35,397 nt of DNA from a candidate division WOR-3 bacterium (GTDB taxonomy: Bacteria > Hydrothermota > Tepidihabitantia > Tepidihabitantales > Tepidihabitantaceae): the NCBI GenBank assembly GCA_039801245.1, contig JBDRUF010000013.1, positions 1-35,397 on the forward strand, written 5' to 3'. A program made the translations under genes and the position numbers. Each line of letters starts with the position of its first letter. Positions within the stretch are counted from its first letter, which is position 1. Positions 10,883 to 18,526 of this stretch are shown here, piece after piece. The notes under the pieces were generated by a model. That model did not search any database and was not told the DNA's origin. It saw only the letters and a program-made list of their open reading frames with translations.

Positions 10883-11692
10883 ATGATTTTTTCTATGAAA
10901 CAACGGTTGTTAATTTTTACCGGCATCGCTGCGGGACTGATTACGATATCCTGTTCAGATGCACCGCTGATTGTCCGCGAGGCGAACCGAGTGGTTCTAG
11001 TTGAACTTTTTTCCACCCCGCTGGATGAATGAGAGTACTGTGCGTCCGCGGCGCGGGCGCTTGACAGCCTGAAGTCTCTTTACGGAGATTCAATGGCTTT
11101 TGTAATTTACTACTCAGGCGAAACCCATCAGCAACTCGCATCGCGGGCAGGCAAAGCAAGGAGTGAATGGTATGGTGTTGGCCTTGAGGCACCGCTTGCC
11201 TTTTTTGATGGAACATTGCGCTCGCCCCAGATTACTGTGCCGGACTCATTTTATCCGGTGTATAAAGACATGATTGATGCCGCCCGTTCCCGCAAGAGTT
11301 GGCTGGAGATGGTAATTGACAGCACCAGCACGACTATTGATTCGGCTACGCTGCAAATCAGGATAAGTATCACCCCGACCGACTCGGTGATCGACACAGT
11401 GACCAGCCTAAGGCTGGTGGCGATTGTTTATGAGGACAGTGTGCCTTATTACTCATTTTTAGTCGGGGACACAACCTATTCACCGATGACAGTACGTCAG
11501 GTTATTGGTGATAGTTTCGGCATCCCGATTAACCTTAAGTTCGGACAGGATTTTGACACATTACTGGCAACCAGTGTCAGTGGCTATAATCCCGATCGCG
11601 TGGGTGTGGTGGTTTCGGTTCAGGATTTTGCTACCAAGGCGGTGTTGCAGACTGCGGTCAAAAGAAGAATTAAAAGAGGGGAGGCAAGATGA
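10883..11692 (+). CDS. Selenoprotein: Omp28-like thioredoxin-fold lipoprotein with UxxC (in-frame TGA 11030-11032)
   Basis: 269 residues if TGA codon 50 is read as selenocysteine. ATG at 10883 follows CAGGAA by 3 nt. The N-terminus is hydrophobic and ends ITISC|SD, an imperfect lipobox, so it is probably exported and lipidated. Then comes RVVLVELFSTPLDE-U50-EY-C53-ASAARALDSL, which aligns with the Omp28-type opening where CxxC normally stands. A thioredoxin-like cis-Pro follows at residue 104 (APLAFFDG). The frame continues without further stops to a TGA at 11690-11692 that overlaps the TlpA-like ATG (ATGA), so readthrough also explains the coupling. The bSECIS candidate is at 11042-11060. 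A caller that stops at TGA would report only a fragment from an ATG at 11093, lacking both signal and active site. Alternative: a nonsense pseudogene, judged unlikely because the same event occurs three times in this locus at the same motif position. Confidence 0.85.
11042..11060 (+). promoter_or_regulatory. bSECIS candidate 1
   Basis: GCGTCCG (11042-11048) pairs with CGGGCGC (11054-11060), 7 bp with one G-U, around the loop CGGCG. The loop begins after 16 nt downstream of the TGA at 11030-11032 and has G at loop position 2, fitting the bacterial SECIS model (loop 16-37 nt from UGA, G among the first two loop bases). Confidence 0.75.
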
Positions 11693-12246
11693 GAAGAGAA
11701 TTTATGATTTTGGCAGCCCTGATATTTGCCCTAAGTGCGGTACGCGCTGAGGAAAAGGAAGAACCCAAGTATGAAAAGGCGCCTGACTTTACCCTCCTTG
11801 ATATCAAAGGCAATGAGGTTACCCTTTCTGAACTCTTAAAAAACGGACCGGTATATATGGAATGCTGGGACTTGCCCTGCGTCAACTGCATTGCCGAACT
11901 GGATGCACTTGTCCCGGTCTACGACTCGCTGAAAGAGCGGGGCTTGCAGATTATCGCCCTTTCGGTTGATAAGCCCAGTGATGAGGGAAGGGTAAAGGCG
12001 TTTGTCTCTTCGAAAAAGTGGCCGTATATTATTCTCCTTGACCAGGAGCAGAAAGTGAAAAAGGCGTATAACATCATCATCAAACCCACCGCCTATCTGA
12101 TAAATATGCAGGGCGAGATTGTCTATACCCATATCGGGTATAAGAAGGGCGACGAGAAAAAAATCGCTGAGGAGATAGGCAAATGGCTACCTGAGGAAGA
12201 AAAAAAAGAGGAGCCAACTGGCGAGGACACTCAGGAACATAAATGA
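11689..12246 (+). CDS. TlpA/ResA-like periplasmic thioredoxin
   Basis: 185 residues. Signal peptide to about residue 20 (ILAALIFALSAVRA). The thioredoxin fold of the AhpC/TSA-TlpA type opens with KAPDFTLLDIKG. The active site is C64-V-N-C67 in WDLPCVNCIAEL, atypical against TlpA's WCxPC. The cis-Pro is in IKPTAYLIN, and GEIVYTHIGY follows. The acidic tail (EEEKKEEPTGEDTQE) is probably disordered. Start overlaps the end of the selenoprotein gene (ATGA), implying translational coupling. Role (inference from family): exchanging reducing equivalents with partner thiol proteins in the periplasm. It is the only member of the cluster's three soluble thioredoxin-fold proteins that keeps Cys at the first position. 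Confidence 0.92.
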   Translation: MRREFMILAALIFALSAVRAEEKEEPKYEKAPDFTLLDIKGNEVTLSELLKNGPVYMECWDLPCVNCIAELDALVPVYDSLKERGLQIIALSVDKPSDEGRVKAFVSSKKWPYIILLDQEQKVKKAYNIIIKPTAYLINMQGEIVYTHIGYKKGDEKKIAEEIGKWLPEEEKKEEPTGEDTQEHK

Positions 12247-12319
12247 GCAGGCTTGTCCCGAGCGACTGGAAAAGGCGTTCCTCCACTGGGGTGGCGATGG
12301 GGGAGCCGAGGAGTAGACG

Positions 12320-13780
12320 GTGCCGGTGACCCCTCTCCTCCTCACCATCGCCATCTTCGCTGCTGACTTTACCATTCAGGGTGTCAACCGGGCAGAATTC
12401 TGGGGGTATCAGGAGCAGTGGGCAACCCATTTTGAAGATAAACTGGATTTAACCGCCCGCTACGCCGATTTTGATGCCGAACTGGGCATTCTTTTGTTTG
12501 AGCCATCAAAGCATAGCCCCGCGGTGCGGAGACCCTTGCGCCTGTTTGATTACTCCATTGGCTATAATCCGCAGGAACTGGAAATCAGATTGGGCAGATT
12601 CTTTACCACCTTTGGTCAAGGTCTGACGCTCTCCTCCTCGTCCGATGACGACTTCCGGCATTACAAAAGCCTACACGGGCTTATGGGCAAAATAAACCTG
12701 CCTTTCAAAAGCGAAATAACCCTTCTTGGTGCCAGATTACGCGATGTCTTTTTTCAGGAAAACACCTATAAAATAATGAATGAACTTGATACCACCGACC
12801 AGGTCTTGGGTGCGAATTTGACTTCAAGACCAAGGAAGTTTTTCGCATTTGGTTCAAGGTATGTCCGGATTAACCGCGATGTTGACCCAAGCGCAAAGGC
12901 ATTTACCGAACTCTTTGGCGGTGATGTCCGGTTGGATTTCGGCCCAGCGATGATAGGTGGTGAGGCGTGCTGGCGGTTGGGAACAAGACCAGGGATTGGC
13001 GGCAGGGAAAAGGGCTTTGGTTATCTAATAAATACCGGTATCAGCCTTGCCGGGATTTCCTTTGTCGGGCAGTTCGTTGATTACACCCGCCTCGGGTTTC
13101 CCTCTGGAGTTTACCATTACAATGACCCGCCCACACCAATAAAATCCGGGGTGGCAATCAACCGTGGTGTTGATGAACGGGGTTTTGGCCTGCAGGTCTC
13201 AGGGATGCCCTTAACCGCACTTTATCTTGAAGCCAACTTAGGCAGGCTTTTTGTCCACGACGACACCAGCGCCGGTGTGGTTGAAGCCGAGGCAAAGGTG
13301 CGCTATTCACTTGGCACTAACTGGACATTTGAAGGCAAGTTCAATCATATGCTGCAAAAAAACATTGAATTAGGAACATACCAGCGCATCACCGACCGAC
13401 CGAGTATCATGATTAACTATCTCTTCGGTCAACATACCATTGCCCTTGAGGCAGAGTTCGGCTGGGTTGATGAAAGGCCGACCGATACCGCCAAAGGTGC
13501 GCACTGGCTGTATCACGAACCGCTCATCTCTTTCAGCTATGGCTGTGGTGAAAAGTGGCTCTTTACACTTGGCTGGCAGGGTGTTGACAAGGACTCGCTC
13601 AAGCGCTATGACAACCAGAAATCCTGGCCTATATTTGAAACGGTTTACAACATCAATGAGCGCAATGTCCTCAGACTAAGAATAGGTGCGGAAAAGGGCG
13701 GCTACACCTGTTCGGGCGGGGTCTGCCGTTATGAGGCACCTTTCCGGGGTGTGAAATTACAGTTAATCAGCCGAATATAA
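12320..13780 (+). CDS. DUF6029-like outer-membrane beta-barrel protein
   Basis: 486 residues from the GTG at 12320, 7 nt after GAGGAG and just downstream of an in-frame TAG at 12314. Short hydrophobic start (TPLLLTIAIFAADFT), then alternating polar/aromatic beta strands throughout (e.g. FDYSIGYNPQELEIRLGRFF, then TLGWQGVDKDS) typical of an outer-membrane barrel. The C-terminal block GEKGGYTCSGGVCRYEAP carries a paired Cys motif (CSGGVCR) that I associate with DUF6029 proteins of Bacteroidetes-like bacteria. Flanked by thiol-redox genes and followed after 1 nt by the small selenoprotein, so the barrel is a likely client or platform of the redox system (inference). Function otherwise unknown. 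Confidence 0.75.
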   Translation: MPVTPLLLTIAIFAADFTIQGVNRAEFWGYQEQWATHFEDKLDLTARYADFDAELGILLFEPSKHSPAVRRPLRLFDYSIGYNPQELEIRLGRFFTTFGQGLTLSSSSDDDFRHYKSLHGLMGKINLPFKSEITLLGARLRDVFFQENTYKIMNELDTTDQVLGANLTSRPRKFFAFGSRYVRINRDVDPSAKAFTELFGGDVRLDFGPAMIGGEACWRLGTRPGIGGREKGFGYLINTGISLAGISFVGQFVDYTRLGFPSGVYHYNDPPTPIKSGVAINRGVDERGFGLQVSGMPLTALYLEANLGRLFVHDDTSAGVVEAEAKVRYSLGTNWTFEGKFNHMLQKNIELGTYQRITDRPSIMINYLFGQHTIALEAEFGWVDERPTDTAKGAHWLYHEPLISFSYGCGEKWLFTLGWQGVDKDSLKRYDNQKSWPIFETVYNINERNVLRLRIGAEKGGYTCSGGVCRYEAPFRGVKLQLISRI

Positions 13781-13781
13781 A

Positions 13782-13916
13782 ATGCGGCGGTTTATCATAA
13801 TTGCCTTAGCAGCTGTCGGTGCCGCAGCAGTAGCCCTCGGTATCAAATTAGGGATGCTAACGGTTATCCACGGCTTTGCCTCCCAGATATGACTCTCCTG
13901 TATGGGTCTCGTGTAG
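13782..13916 (+). CDS. Small membrane selenoprotein, CD1871A-like UxxC family (in-frame TGA 13890-13892)
   Basis: 44 residues when TGA codon 37 is read as Sec; too short and interrupted for ordinary gene callers. ATG lies 1 nt after the DUF6029 stop, so translation is probably coupled. One N-terminal TM helix (FIIIALAAVGAAAVALGI), then GMLTVIHGFASQI-U37-LS-C40-MGLV and TAG. The layout (TM, a G-x-x-x-V-x-x-K/H-like middle, then ICxxCxGxx at the extreme C-terminus) matches, from memory, the CD1871A family of ~45-residue CXXC proteins, which often sit next to 4Fe-4S membrane proteins as here (13928). The first Cys of the motif is Sec. A 6-bp hairpin (13904-13920) follows at the right distance. 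Likely role: membrane-anchored thiol/selenol carrier taking electrons from the NapH-like neighbour (inference). Confidence 0.82.
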
Positions 13917-13920
13917 ACCC
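13904..13920 (+). promoter_or_regulatory. bSECIS candidate 2
   Basis: GGGTCT (13904-13909) pairs perfectly with AGACCC (13915-13920) around CGTGT. The loop begins after 17 nt downstream of the TGA and contains G at position 2 followed by U. The hairpin spans the TAG stop (13914-13916) and ends 7 nt before the next ATG (13928), so Sec decoding and initiation of the Fe-S gene may interfere. Confidence 0.78.
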
Positions 13921-13927
13921 TTGAGAT

Positions 13928-15208
13928 ATGCCTAAAAGAAGAATCGCACCCTACCGTATCGGTCAGATTGCCGCTACCATTATCTTAAACGGCTACATCC
14001 TTGCCTATATTCAGAATAAAATCATTTATTCTGGCTTTCTCAAATCAATCCCTGAACCGGTTCTTAACTGCTATGGCGGACCTCTTTCTGTCTTTGCCTG
14101 CCCGCTCGGCTCTCTACAACAGATTATTGGAATGAAAGGCACTTACTGGTGGCAGAATGTTCCCTGGGTGATAATTGGTTTTTTTGTCCTTATCGGTGCG
14201 TTTGTTGGTAGAACCGCCTGCGCCTGGGTTTGCCCTTTTGGTTTGTGGCAGGACTTACTTTATAAAATTAAATCAGGACCCCGCGCAAAGGCAAAACGCT
14301 GGATTTCCTTTGCCATCATTGGCTTCATCGGCTTGATTGCGGTAATATTGCTTACCATTTTTATCCATATCGCTATCTGGAAATCACTCCTTTTTGCCTG
14401 GCTGCCGTTTATGGTGCTTCTGCTTTATACTCCCCTCAAGGGAAAAAGCGACTTGCCAAAACGCTGGTGGCTTGGCGGAATGATTGTTGGGATTGGACTC
14501 GGGCTTTTAGTTGCCTTCAAGCATGAAATCAACCTCGGCATTGCCAGCGGCGTAATAGCAATGACACTTTTCAGCCTTGTTGGTGGTCTACCGGTTATCT
14601 TAATTGCTGCACCCCTTGGTTTTGCTCTCAGCCTTTTTGGCAAACCGGTTCATCTCGGTCCGTTTGCCGGTGCAGAACTTGGGCTTTTGTTTGTTCTTAT
14701 CTCAGTGCTGATAGTTCTTTTGCTCGACCGATTGGTGAAGGTGTCTCTGCCCGCAACCGGTCTAAAATTCGCCTTTTTACTCCTTGTTGCCGTTGTTGTG
14801 CCATTTCTTACTGCCGAACCCTGGTTCTGCAAACTCTGCCCTCAGGGAACCCTTGAAGCCGGAATCCCTCTGGTCCTCTGGGACCCGGTTCAGGGATTGC
14901 GGGCGCTTGTCTCTTGGCTTTTTTATCTCAAGGTCGGCATTCTCCTTTTCGTCATCTGGGCAGCGATTACAATCAGGCGCCCTTTCTGCCGCCTTGTCTG
15001 CCCGATTGGCGCGGTCTACTCCCTCTTTAACAAGATAAGCCTAATGCGGTTAAAACTTGATGCCGCCACTTGCAACCAGTGCAAAATCTGCCGCCGGGTC
15101 TGTCCCACCGATATTGAGCCTTTTGAGGACCCAAACCAGGCAGAATGCATCCGTTGTTTTGAATGTGTCTGGAACTGTCCGCGCCGCGCCTTGAAGATTA
15201 CCACATAA
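13928..15208 (+). CDS. Polytopic 4Fe-4S membrane protein (NapH/CcoG-like)
   Basis: 426 residues, about 8-10 hydrophobic helices. Cys motifs in order: NCYGGPLSVFACPLG (~47-61), CAWVCPFG (~98-105), FCKLCPQGT (~301), PFCRLVCPIGA (~356), then two classical [4Fe-4S] sets, CNQCKICRRVCP and CIRCFECVWNCP, in the C-terminal 50 residues. The CxxxCP membrane motifs and terminal ferredoxin domain match NapH-type quinol or membrane electron carriers. The first motif reads CYGG where relatives usually have CYxC, so one ligand is lost. It directly follows the small UxxC selenoprotein. Inferred role: passing electrons across the membrane to the extracytoplasmic thiol/selenol proteins of the cluster. Confidence 0.9.
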   Translation: MPKRRIAPYRIGQIAATIILNGYILAYIQNKIIYSGFLKSIPEPVLNCYGGPLSVFACPLGSLQQIIGMKGTYWWQNVPWVIIGFFVLIGAFVGRTACAWVCPFGLWQDLLYKIKSGPRAKAKRWISFAIIGFIGLIAVILLTIFIHIAIWKSLLFAWLPFMVLLLYTPLKGKSDLPKRWWLGGMIVGIGLGLLVAFKHEINLGIASGVIAMTLFSLVGGLPVILIAAPLGFALSLFGKPVHLGPFAGAELGLLFVLISVLIVLLLDRLVKVSLPATGLKFAFLLLVAVVVPFLTAEPWFCKLCPQGTLEAGIPLVLWDPVQGLRALVSWLFYLKVGILLFVIWAAITIRRPFCRLVCPIGAVYSLFNKISLMRLKLDAATCNQCKICRRVCPTDIEPFEDPNQAECIRCFECVWNCPRRALKITT

Positions 15209-15211
15209 AAG

Positions 15212-16072
15212 GTGCGTAAACCCTCCTGGCTCAAAACCAGACTGCCTCTTGGTGAAGAGTTCAACCGGGTCAATGCCATCATTTCAAAGTACAACCTTAA
15301 CACCGTTTGCAGCTCTGCCCGCTGCCCCAACCTTAGCGAATGCTGGAACTCAGGCACCGCCACAATCATGCTTTTGGGTGATATCTGCACCAGGCACTGC
15401 CGTTTCTGCTCTGTTAAAACCGGCAACCCTCAGGGTAAAATTGACCCTGATGAACCTCAAAGGGTGGCAAAGGCGGTAAAGGAACTGGGCTTGAAATATC
15501 TGGTTTTAACCTCGGTTGACCGTGATGACCTTTCTGACCTCGGTGCAGGTATCTTTGCCCGAACGGTCAAAATCCTGAAATCTCAAAACCCTCAAATCAA
15601 AATAGAGGTCCTTGTTCCTGATTTCGGGGGAAGGGAAGAGTTGCTCCACCTCGTGGTTGATTCCGGTCCGGATGTCTTCGCACATAACCTTGAGACGGTT
15701 GAGCGGCTCTCAACTTTGGTCCGTGACCACCGCTCATCCTATCACCAGTCGCTTGGGGTGCTAAAAAAGGTCAAAAATATGGCGCCTACCCTCCTGACCA
15801 AGAGCGGCTTGATGCTCGGACTGGGCGAGACAAAACAAGAGGTCTTGCAGACCCTTGCAGATTTGCGCAGTGCCGGCTGCGATATTGTTACAATCGGTCA
15901 ATACCTTCAACCCAACCGTAGATGCCTACCGGTTGCCCTTTACTGGACACCTGATGAGTTCAAGGAAATTGAAGCGGAGGGAAGAAAAATGGGCTTCAGA
16001 CAGGTTTTTGCCGCACCCTTGGTGCGCAGCTCCTATCAGGCAGAAAAAATCTTCTTTGATGAACGGGCTTAA
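15212..16072 (+). CDS. lipA: Lipoyl synthase
   Basis: 286 residues, GTG start 3 nt after the Fe-S gene's stop. Both diagnostic cluster motifs are present: C33-SSAR-C38-PNLSE-C44 for the auxiliary sulfur-donating [4Fe-4S] and C59-TRH-C63-RF-C66 for the radical-SAM cluster. The C-terminal RSSYQAE supplies the Ser ligand of the auxiliary cluster. Reaction: insertion of two sulfurs into the octanoyl group on E2/GcvH proteins. No lipB or lplA is adjacent. It is embedded in the redox operon, with the MFS start overlapping its last 14 nt. Placement may be incidental, or may reflect a shared need for low-potential electrons (inference). Confidence 0.97.
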   Translation: MRKPSWLKTRLPLGEEFNRVNAIISKYNLNTVCSSARCPNLSECWNSGTATIMLLGDICTRHCRFCSVKTGNPQGKIDPDEPQRVAKAVKELGLKYLVLTSVDRDDLSDLGAGIFARTVKILKSQNPQIKIEVLVPDFGGREELLHLVVDSGPDVFAHNLETVERLSTLVRDHRSSYHQSLGVLKKVKNMAPTLLTKSGLMLGLGETKQEVLQTLADLRSAGCDIVTIGQYLQPNRRCLPVALYWTPDEFKEIEAEGRKMGFRQVFAAPLVRSSYQAEKIFFDERA

Positions 16073-17426
16073 CCAGAGCGCAATCAACCGCGGTCTGAAA
16101 ATCTCAATCATTGAAGGCACATTTGCCACCCTTTACACCACCCTTGCCGGCGGTATGTTCCTTGCCGGACTTGCGCTTTATCTTGGTGCCAACTCATTTC
16201 AAATCGCCCTTTTGAGCGCCATCCCCGCCTTAGTGAGCGGTTTCAGTTTTCTTGCCGGTTATCTTGTGCGCCGGGTTGGTGCGCGCAAACCAATAGTTCT
16301 CTGGACCGCGGGACTGGGCAGGACGGTCTATCTCTTGTTTGTCCCCTTCCTCCTCCTTGGCATCAGATTTAAAATAGAACTCTTCCTCTTGGTGGTAATG
16401 CTCTCCAGCGTTCTGATGGCGATTGCCGGCACGGTCTGGACATCCTGGATAAGCGACCTGGTGCCTGAAGAAACAAGAGGAAGGTTTTTCGGTCTGCGCA
16501 ATGCCATCCTCAATGTCAGCGGTGTCTTTGTTGCCTATGCTGCGGGCAGGGGAATGGACTGGTTAAAGGCGTGGGGTCAGGAGGTCTCCGGTTATGCGCT
16601 TGCCTTTACCCTTGCGGTCAGTTTCGGTCTGGTCTCAACCCTTCTTTTAACCCGCCAGCCCGAGCCACACCTGCCCAAAAGACCAGCACCCAGTTTGAAG
16701 GAGATATTCATCGGTCCCTTGCACGAGCCCCAGTTCCGGCGCCTGACCGTCTTCCTTGGGGTCTGGTTTCTCACCGGCACCCTCGCATCGCCATTCTACC
16801 TTGTCCATCTTATCAAAAATTTGCACTTCAGTTTTGCCGCCATCGCCATCTACTCAATGATTGGCGGCGTCATCGGTGTCCTTTTCCAACTCTTCTGGGG
16901 CAGGGTCATTGACCGGTTTGGCTCAAGACCGGTTACGGTCTTCAACTTTGCCCTTGTCGGTCTGATGCCCTTTCTCTGGCTTTTTGCAACACCAAAGTTC
17001 CGCCTGCCCATCTGGATAGATGCGGTTCTTAACGGCACGGTCTGGACCGGTGCCAACCTCGGACTCTGGAACCTCCTCTTGGATTTGGCAGACAACCCGG
17101 TGCGCAAGGAGAGTTACTTTGCCATCTACTCGGTCGTTACCGGCTTGGGTGCATTCATCGCCGCCATCTTTGCCGGCACGGTCGCTCAGCTCCTCTCCCC
17201 CTTTCACCTCACCCTCTTCACCCTTGACTTCTACAACTACGATATAATGTTTCTCCTTGCCGGCATCGCCCGGTTTGCCTCTTTGCCGTTGCTGCTAAAG
17301 GTCCAAGAACCCGGGAGCAAGCCTGTCCGCTACACCATCAGGGTTCTTGGCAACTTTGCCCTCTGGCGCCTGAATGCGGGCAAGGATACCGTCCTTGAGG
17401 CGCTGGGCATAAAATCAAAGGATTGA
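16059..17426 (+). CDS. MFS transporter
   Basis: 455 residues from the ATG at 16059, overlapping lipA by 14 nt. The frame stays open upstream to 15855 only because it shadows lipA. About 12 TM segments: N-terminal half from GTFATLYTTLAGGMFLAGLA, central loop with KRPAPSLKEIF, second half with GGVIGVLFQLFWGRVIDRFG, the second copy of the MFS loop motif (G-x-x-x-D-R-x-G-x-R). LVPEETRGRFFGLRNAI is the equivalent region of the N-terminal half. Substrate not deducible. Last gene before a new promoter and the second Omp28-like selenoprotein gene. Confidence 0.9.
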   Translation: MNGLNQSAINRGLKISIIEGTFATLYTTLAGGMFLAGLALYLGANSFQIALLSAIPALVSGFSFLAGYLVRRVGARKPIVLWTAGLGRTVYLLFVPFLLLGIRFKIELFLLVVMLSSVLMAIAGTVWTSWISDLVPEETRGRFFGLRNAILNVSGVFVAYAAGRGMDWLKAWGQEVSGYALAFTLAVSFGLVSTLLLTRQPEPHLPKRPAPSLKEIFIGPLHEPQFRRLTVFLGVWFLTGTLASPFYLVHLIKNLHFSFAAIAIYSMIGGVIGVLFQLFWGRVIDRFGSRPVTVFNFALVGLMPFLWLFATPKFRLPIWIDAVLNGTVWTGANLGLWNLLLDLADNPVRKESYFAIYSVVTGLGAFIAAIFAGTVAQLLSPFHLTLFTLDFYNYDIMFLLAGIARFASLPLLLKVQEPGSKPVRYTIRVLGNFALWRLNAGKDTVLEALGIKSKD

Positions 17427-17450
17427 CAGGAAAAAAACCCTGGTTAAATT
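17423..17450 (+). promoter_or_regulatory. Promoter of the second Omp28-like selenoprotein gene
   Basis: TTGACA (17423-17428, overlapping the MFS stop), 16-nt spacer, TAAATT (17445-17450). Predicted start near 17457 leaves a short leader containing AAAGGAG before ATG 17472. Confidence 0.45.
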
Positions 17451-17471
17451 TACTATTGAAAGGAGAACCTT

Positions 17472-18485
17472 ATGAAGAAACTGACCGTTTTAACACTCCT
17501 CCTCGCCGCAATGGCGCTTGGTTATCAGCGCGTGGTTGTCTGTGAGGAAGCCTATTCTGAAGGTTGAGGCTCCTGTGCCACAGCCAGCAGTGTGCTGGAC
17601 CAGATTTGCTATGACTATGCCGGCTATGTGGTTGCGGTAGAATGGCATGTCAGTTCATCCTATCCGCTCTACTCTGCCGAGGCAAGGGCAAAATGGCGGA
17701 TGTATCCTCCGCCCTACAACGGCTCCTATGCCACACCCTGGCTCTGGGTTGATGGCAGACAGCGCGGCTACAACTACAACCTCTGGCGCAACTATGTTGC
17801 CAGCCAGATTTCGGTCCCAACCCCGGTCCTGATTACCCTTTCTGGAAATTACGACCCAGCAACCCGCGAAGGTGAAATCAAAGCATTGATTCAGAACGAC
17901 TCCACCGAAGACCTGACCGCCCGTGTCTCGGTTGTTGTTACAGAAGACTCCATCTACTATGCTGCACCCAACGGCGACCCCTGGCACAACCATGTCTGCC
18001 GCGACTACATCCCTGACCAGACCGGAACGGTCCTGACAATCCCTGCCGGTGCTGCTGATTCGGTAATCCTGCCATTTACCATCAACTCCAACTGGAACGA
18101 GGAAAAGTGCAAGATTGTTGTCTATGCCCAGAGCACCGAAATGGTTCCTGCCGACTCATCCTATCCTGCCTATCAGGGCGCTGAGGTGAATATCCTTGAC
18201 CTGGTGGGAATACAGGAGAAAAAAGCGTATAACCTCAAACCGCAACTGCGCATTATTCCTAACCCGGTTCGGACCAAAGCCGAGCTTCTCTTCAACGCCC
18301 AGCCAGGCACACCCTATCAACTCCTCCTCCATTCTCCTGATGGCAGACTCCTGAAAAAATTCTCTGGGATTGCGTCAGGTGAAACCAAACTGCGCATAGA
18401 AAAAAGGCTTAACTCTGGCATCTACCTCTACCGCCTTACCCTCAACCAGTCAACATTCAGCGGCAAACTTATCGTAGCCCAATAA
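17472..18485 (+). CDS. Selenoprotein: Omp28-like protein with UxxC and sorting domain (in-frame TGA 17565-17567)
   Basis: 337 residues if TGA codon 32 is Sec. ATG 17472 has a strong GAAAGGAG site 6-8 nt up. Signal peptide KKLTVLTLLLAAMALG, then RVVVCEEAYSEG-U32-GS-C35-ATASSVLDQICYD, the Omp28 family opening with Sec in place of the first active-site Cys. A cis-Pro follows at residue 89 (YATPWLWVDG), giving a thioredoxin-like fold, then a beta-rich middle. The C-terminal ~80 residues (LRIIPNPVRTKAELLF, then NSGIYLYRLTLNQ) form a Por/T9SS-like sorting domain, so the redox head is probably displayed outside the outer membrane. Calling from the next start (GTG 17592) would lose signal and active site. 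bSECIS candidate 17584-17598; own promoter and terminator. Confidence 0.88.
17584..17598 (+). promoter_or_regulatory. bSECIS candidate 3
   Basis: CCAGCA (17584-17589) pairs perfectly with TGCTGG (17593-17598) around a GTG loop. The loop begins after 22 nt downstream of the TGA (17565-17567) with G first and U second, as in the bSECIS model. A nearer alternative hairpin (CTGT-GCC-ACAG) is too close to the TGA. Confidence 0.75.
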
Positions 18486-18499
18486 CCCAAAACATCATT

Positions 18500-18526
18500 A
18501 AAGGCGGGCAAGATGCCCGCCTTTTT
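18500..18526 (+). terminator. Rho-independent terminator of the selenoprotein region
   Basis: AAAGGCGGGCA (18500-18510), loop AGA, TGCCCGCCTTT (18514-18524) with TTTTTATTA. Perfect 11-bp stem; it closes the 17472-18485 gene and separates it from the convergent methyltransferase. Confidence 0.92.

Follow-up and report, generated by a model that had tools for sequence, protein, structure and literature searches.

Three genes in an eight-gene locus of a candidate division WOR-3 bacterium each carry a single in-frame TGA at the first position of a UxxC motif and, judged by sequence, bear all the marks of genuine selenoproteins. Our reading of the locus, held with moderate confidence, is that it encodes a TlpA-DUF6029-Omp28-type envelope thiol/selenol system made with selenocysteine (Sec), which would work as a reductive relay. 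The window, by which we mean the whole stretch of 35,397 nucleotides that was analyzed, comes from a 1.7-Mb genome that is 97% complete. The eight genes (10883-18485) all lie on the plus strand with short gaps or overlaps, the TlpA start overlapping the ORF1 stop, in the order ORF1, TlpA, DUF6029, a very short gene referred to here as tiny, NapH-like, LipA-like, MFS, and ORF3:

10883..11692, plus strand: ORF1, Omp28/HBP35-type thioredoxin-fold lipoprotein and selenoprotein; Sec is residue 50 (TGA 11030-11032; UEYC)
11042..11060, plus strand: ORF1 SECIS-like hairpin; loop GGC at 11050-11052, 17 nt after the TGA
11689..12246, plus strand: TlpA/ResA-like periplasmic thiol-disulfide oxidoreductase with CVNC (AhpC-TSA, 1.9e-21; ResA, 3.4e-24); syntenic in relatives
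12320..13780, plus strand: DUF6029 (PF19494), predicted outer-membrane beta-barrel with 24 strands in the model
13709..13726, plus strand: CSGGVC motif of DUF6029 (C464, C469), in the loop preceding the last strand
13782..13916, plus strand: tiny, 44-aa CD1871A-like selenoprotein; Sec TGA 13890-13892, IULSCMGLV at the C-terminus
13904..13920, plus strand: tiny SECIS-like hairpin; loop CGTGT at 13910-13914, +17
13928..15208, plus strand: NapH-like polytopic Fe-S protein; 16 invariant Cys (15 relatives compared)
15212..16072, plus strand: LipA-like lipoyl synthase; conserved along with the cluster in the window's family
16059..17426, plus strand: MFS transporter; conserved along with the cluster in most of the window's family
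17472..18485, plus strand: ORF3, Omp28/HBP35-type selenoprotein with a T9SS type A sorting tail; Sec is residue 32 (TGA 17565-17567; UGSC)
17584..17598, plus strand: ORF3 SECIS-like hairpin, CCAGCA-GTG-TGCTGG; loop at 17590-17592, 22 nt after the TGA
18500..18524, plus strand: intrinsic terminator-like hairpin 3' of the gene run; 11 pairs, 7 of them GC

The internal TGA codons lie at 11030 in ORF1 (DEUEYC), 13890 in tiny (QIULSC), and 17565 in ORF3 (EGUGSC), one per ORF. The window alone could not settle whether they encode Sec, because UxxC or CxxU motifs in TGA frames of such size numbered 4, versus 2.5 expected from shuffles; these counts were dropped as evidence. The host genome encodes tRNA-Sec (73 bits), SelB (403 bits), SelA (570 bits), and SelD, the full set that the first-pass annotation had proposed searching for. 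We then compared loci across the phylum (147 genomes searched; about 40 loci fetched). The ORF1 column was TGA in every readable core-cluster ORF1 (about 30 loci, with protein identities as low as about 25%), and the TGA was also kept in 16 tiny loci and about 20 ORF3 copies. Cys, which had been suggested as the residue to look for at this column in homologues, was indeed seen there in ORF1/ORF3 paralogues (L107), in the tiny of genome G119, and in the tiny of other families. Neither tRNA-Sec nor SelA was found in G119. The same held for G101, where no ORF1 was detected beside TlpA; its sister G100 has SelA, tRNA-Sec, and an ORF1 with the TGA. Two genomes, each about 90% complete, were exceptions: G066 keeps the TGA, yet SelA and tRNA-Sec were not found, and in G076 SelA was found as a fragment only. 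In ORF1 and ORF3, changes at third codon positions predominated both before and after the TGA, and both flanks are judged to be under purifying selection. As a side observation, SelD adjoins SelB in the host genome (C27:6608-9432; L009, L216) and is likely a selenoprotein itself, since it has an in-frame TGA of its own.

A SECIS-like hairpin was present at a fixed distance 3' of each TGA, with loops at +17 (ORF1), +17 (tiny), and +22 (ORF3) and a G within the first two loop bases in all three. The first-pass annotation had noted such hairpins at 16, 17, and 22 nt; the latter two offsets stand, and the first is 17, a difference of 1 nt. Stems were 8 bp with a GGA or GGC loop in ORF1, 6 bp with CGTGT in tiny, and 6 to 7 bp with G-N-N in ORF3. 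Among relatives, 92% of cells were paired in the ORF1 hairpin (24 relatives) versus 24-49% with slid partners, and 87% in the ORF3 hairpin (17 relatives) versus 19-43%; all 6 pairs of the tiny hairpin formed in 9/9 sequences (100%). Slid-partner controls over the three hairpins gave 19-63% paired, and the stems contained compensatory changes (C-G, T-A, G-C). No comparable hairpin was found in Cys forms of tiny (mean, -1.75 kcal/mol; 26 loci). A scan of the window at Rfam gathering thresholds returned an ordinary tRNA only, and bacterial SECIS elements were not flagged. Taken together, the conserved TGA column, the covarying stems, purifying selection (in ORF1 and ORF3), and the Sec machinery in the same genome settle the Sec reading at the level of sequence, and the original proposal of three separate UxxC selenoproteins is upheld. 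That the TGA codons are instead ordinary stops or sequencing errors, as a UxxC pattern not clearly above chance might by itself allow, is rejected as virtually impossible: the TGA is kept in dozens of independent assemblies, the hairpins covary, the Sec machinery is complete, and selection is purifying on both sides.

The order ORF1-TlpA-DUF6029-tiny-NapH was found again both within the window's family and in further families of its order and class. The synteny anticipated in related genomes was thus observed, and the genes for TlpA, the predicted outer-membrane barrel, and the polytopic Fe-S protein stay clustered across several WOR-3 families. The gene after NapH is LipA in G103 and in the window's family, many members of which also have MFS and ORF3 in the cluster. 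Because ORF3 lies apart from the core cluster or was not detected in several relatives, and ORF1 was not detected beside TlpA in two, the composition of the chain differs among members. Tiny stays beside NapH even in a Cloacimonadota contig that carries TlpA-DUF6029 with an inverted NapH-tiny pair nearby. In Bacteroidota, 12 of the 21 DUF6029 genes inspected were directly followed by an Omp28-type lipoprotein-like ORF with CxxC (CxNC or CxQC), with TlpA at most about 2.5 kb away in most loci. The same three families are therefore close together there, but in Cys forms, and the tiny-NapH pair was not detected in those loci. From these Cys Omp28 neighbors of DUF6029, with TlpA nearby, we infer that the WOR-3 cluster is the selenium version of a widespread envelope thiol module. 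In its WOR-3 version, this module appears to be coupled to two further parts, the NapH-like Fe-S protein and the UxxC peptide tiny.

The ORF1 lipobox Cys (Cys24, in CSxAP) was invariant, and the invariant residues of the protein centered on the UxxC and the lipobox. The AlphaFold model (pLDDT, 90.5) comprised thioredoxin (Trx) and Ig-like domains, and its best match in the PDB was HBP35 (5y1a), followed by Omp28 (2r2c). On this structural match, ORF1 is predicted to belong to the Omp28/HBP35 fold superfamily; it shares their Trx plus Ig-like architecture but has Sec where they have Cys, and its identity to HBP35 is 12%. HBP35 is found on the surface of P. gingivalis, reduces insulin in vitro through its thioredoxin activity, and binds hemin (PMC2907840); it leaves via the Por system (T9SS) (PMC2907840, PMC3120885). 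ORF3 matched Pfam Omp28 (53.3 bits; cut-off, 34.9) and the T9SS sorting tail (29.5 bits; cut-off, 23). SprA, by which we judged T9SS presence, was found in the host genome and in 20/20 genomes tested. ORF3 therefore qualifies as a candidate T9SS cargo, in line with the earlier proposal of a surface-sorted product. Omp28-related selenoproteins have been known since 2008 as GOS_C, now NF045500 (PMC2398784; PMC13188914), and ORF1 and ORF3 resemble them in the Trx-like fold, UxxC, and Omp28 type. However, the ORF1 product is a short lipoprotein from a cluster of five genes, ORF3 is T9SS-tailed, and both fall far under the 200-bit cut-off of NF045500 (ORF1, 2.8e-5, 23.6 bits; ORF3, 3.9e-11, 42.9 bits), as do their relatives (28-81 bits). 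In G076 and G077, SelA or a fragment of it was found near a gene of ORF1 type. Separately, two other WOR-3 genomes have a tRNA-Sec gene directly next to a homologue of ORF3 (L099:8730-8823; L114:2050-2143).

DUF6029 matched PF19494 (54.9 bits; cut-off, 27) and was modeled as a 24-strand barrel (pLDDT, 86) with structural matches to PapC, FimD, and FecA barrels; it is thus predicted to be an outer-membrane barrel. Near its C-terminus, C464 and C469 of the CxGGVC motif were invariant in 19 sequences. Counting strands from a periplasmic N-terminus would place the CSGGVC loop on the extracellular side. A possible polysaccharide-secretion role has been suggested for related barrels in one DUF6029 paper; the conserved neighbors here do not seem to point to such a role for DUF6029.

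Tiny consists of an MRR start, a single N-terminal hydrophobic helix, and a C-terminal I-U-L-S-C-M-G, so that by the positive-inside rule its UxxC probably faces the periplasm. Its homologues resemble the CD1871A family (NF040920), a 38-residue membrane/CxxC domain: 10 of 19 matched (best E, 1.1e-6), whereas the window's tiny scored 14.1 bits, under the cut-off of 32, and in its family the first Cys is replaced by Sec. The NapH-like protein scored 56 bits against NapH/MauN (TIGR02163; cut-off, 213), and we describe it as resembling NapH rather than file it as NapH. Of its 16 invariant Cys, eight would serve two C-terminal 4Fe-4S clusters; the eight others make further Fe-S clusters possible. 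Between its Cys motifs, NapH of the window's family carries about 130 additional aa; NapH of other families lacks this insert and totals about 265-330 aa. Tiny carries Sec only in the family whose NapH has the insert. The tiny SECIS runs over the stop codon of its gene and stops 8 nt short of the NapH start (13928); Sec insertion may therefore influence initiation at NapH, and vice versa. A second tiny, in Cys form, occurs in the host genome (C52; L212:280-4587), where it precedes a Cys Omp28-like protein; genes for a double-cubane-cluster reductase, its activase, and a methyltransferase lie upstream of the pair.

In the relay that we propose, electrons from cytoplasmic ferredoxin would cross the inner membrane via the NapH-like clusters, which would reduce the tiny UxxC at the periplasmic face. 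Tiny would pass reducing equivalents to TlpA, and TlpA to the outer-membrane pair DUF6029/ORF1. This pair would hold surface proteins, namely ORF3 and further T9SS-tailed selenoproteins, in the reduced dithiol and selenol state, and these could then react with extracellular substrates. The order and direction of transfer are suggested by general Trx-fold chemistry; a Sec-based electron path toward the cell surface is plausible. The first-pass annotation had likewise proposed that the products make up a single electron chain, and its interpretation is supported in part: the components and their clustering are upheld, whereas the chain would be one plausible use of them. The Sec machinery, conserved TGA, covarying SECIS, core synteny, and constant tiny-NapH pairing all support the relay, as do the Bacteroidota DUF6029-Omp28 pairs, the Trx fold and HBP35 match of ORF1, and the ORF3 tail together with SprA. 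The variable presence of ORF3 and ORF1, the dependence of the CSGGVC loop placement on strand counts, and the TGA of G066 in a genome where SelA and tRNA-Sec were not found, count against it. A CcdA-like DsbD_2 protein (PF13386) is encoded elsewhere in the genome, and NapH-tiny is thus not the sole possible source of reductant; an argument that the pair is needed because CcdA/DsbD is missing was dropped, since PF13386 is present though PF02683 is absent. A bolder version, in which the relay crosses the outer membrane from the Fe-S protein through tiny and TlpA to the selenolipoprotein and CxGGVC barrel and on to T9SS-displayed selenoproteins, is tentative, and we regard it as unlikely. If true, a Cys version of such a relay would be widespread in Bacteroidota.

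A similarly unlikely reading is disulfide folding and quality control, with the Omp28-type proteins, TlpA, and DUF6029 isomerizing or reducing wrong disulfides of outer-membrane proteins and T9SS cargo, and Sec only speeding exchange. The TlpA/ResA family, the Trx fold, SprA in every genome tested, and the Cys module retained by Bacteroidota would all suit this role, which nonetheless leaves unexplained both the Sec in surface-sorted ORF3 and in other surface proteins and the dedicated Fe-S donor. Surface-sorted selenoproteins and an Fe-S electron source fit a dissimilatory or detoxifying terminal reductase, in which ORF3 and other surface selenoproteins would pass electrons to sulfur compounds, metal ions, or peroxides outside the cell; we consider this quite improbable, as no substrate-binding or known reductase domain was matched beyond Trx/Omp28. 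Capture of heme or a metal, the role proposed for HBP35, with the Omp28-type proteins binding and the large DUF6029 barrel taking up, would accord with the best structural match of ORF1 being a hemin binder (PMC2907840), but this likeness is at the fold level and the invariant residues of ORF1 cluster at the UxxC and lipobox, making this function very improbable.

Relative to these alternatives, the Sec-built relay remains our preferred reading, and we compared its components with known selenoprotein systems. The Tso and SAO operons (PMC13188914) likewise place several selenoproteins in one neighborhood. Membership of either was rejected for want of a convincing model match: no cluster product matched the TsoA, TsoB, or TsoC models at E 0.1, and SaoT matched ORF1 at chance level (E, 0.095). 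The first-pass annotation had known of no description of the combination. We found no description of the combination, of a cluster like this around GOS_C, or of a Sec form of a tiny CD1871A-like peptide in the literature examined, and a 2026 review of prokaryotic selenoproteins does not mention CD1871A (PMC13188914). The parts, however, are not all new, given that GOS_C is known and that relatives of tiny match the CD1871A family. DUF6029, Omp28, and the CD1871A-like tiny thus gain a shared context, an envelope thiol module reaching from WOR-3 to Bacteroidota, and the locus offers a 44-aa transmembrane selenoprotein with its SECIS over its own stop codon, ending just before the start of the next gene.

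Candidate surface-exposed selenoproteins on a bacterium with T9SS raise the question of how extracellular selenols stay reduced. The idea of surface selenoproteins is strengthened by a further candidate family, mostly T9SS-tailed, in the same organisms. Its Sec region is covered by no NCBIfam or Pfam model. One TGA (SGUG) was conserved in every copy whose alignment spans it, and most copies had a SECIS-like hairpin with a GGTC loop at about +20. These proteins start with NGDFE, are roughly 650 aa long, and lie beside ORF1 or ORF3 in relatives (L097:10903-12867 and 13088-14986; L099:5302-7200). The family also occurs twice in the host genome (C14:31256-32224, in L210; C54:3709-4701, L211).
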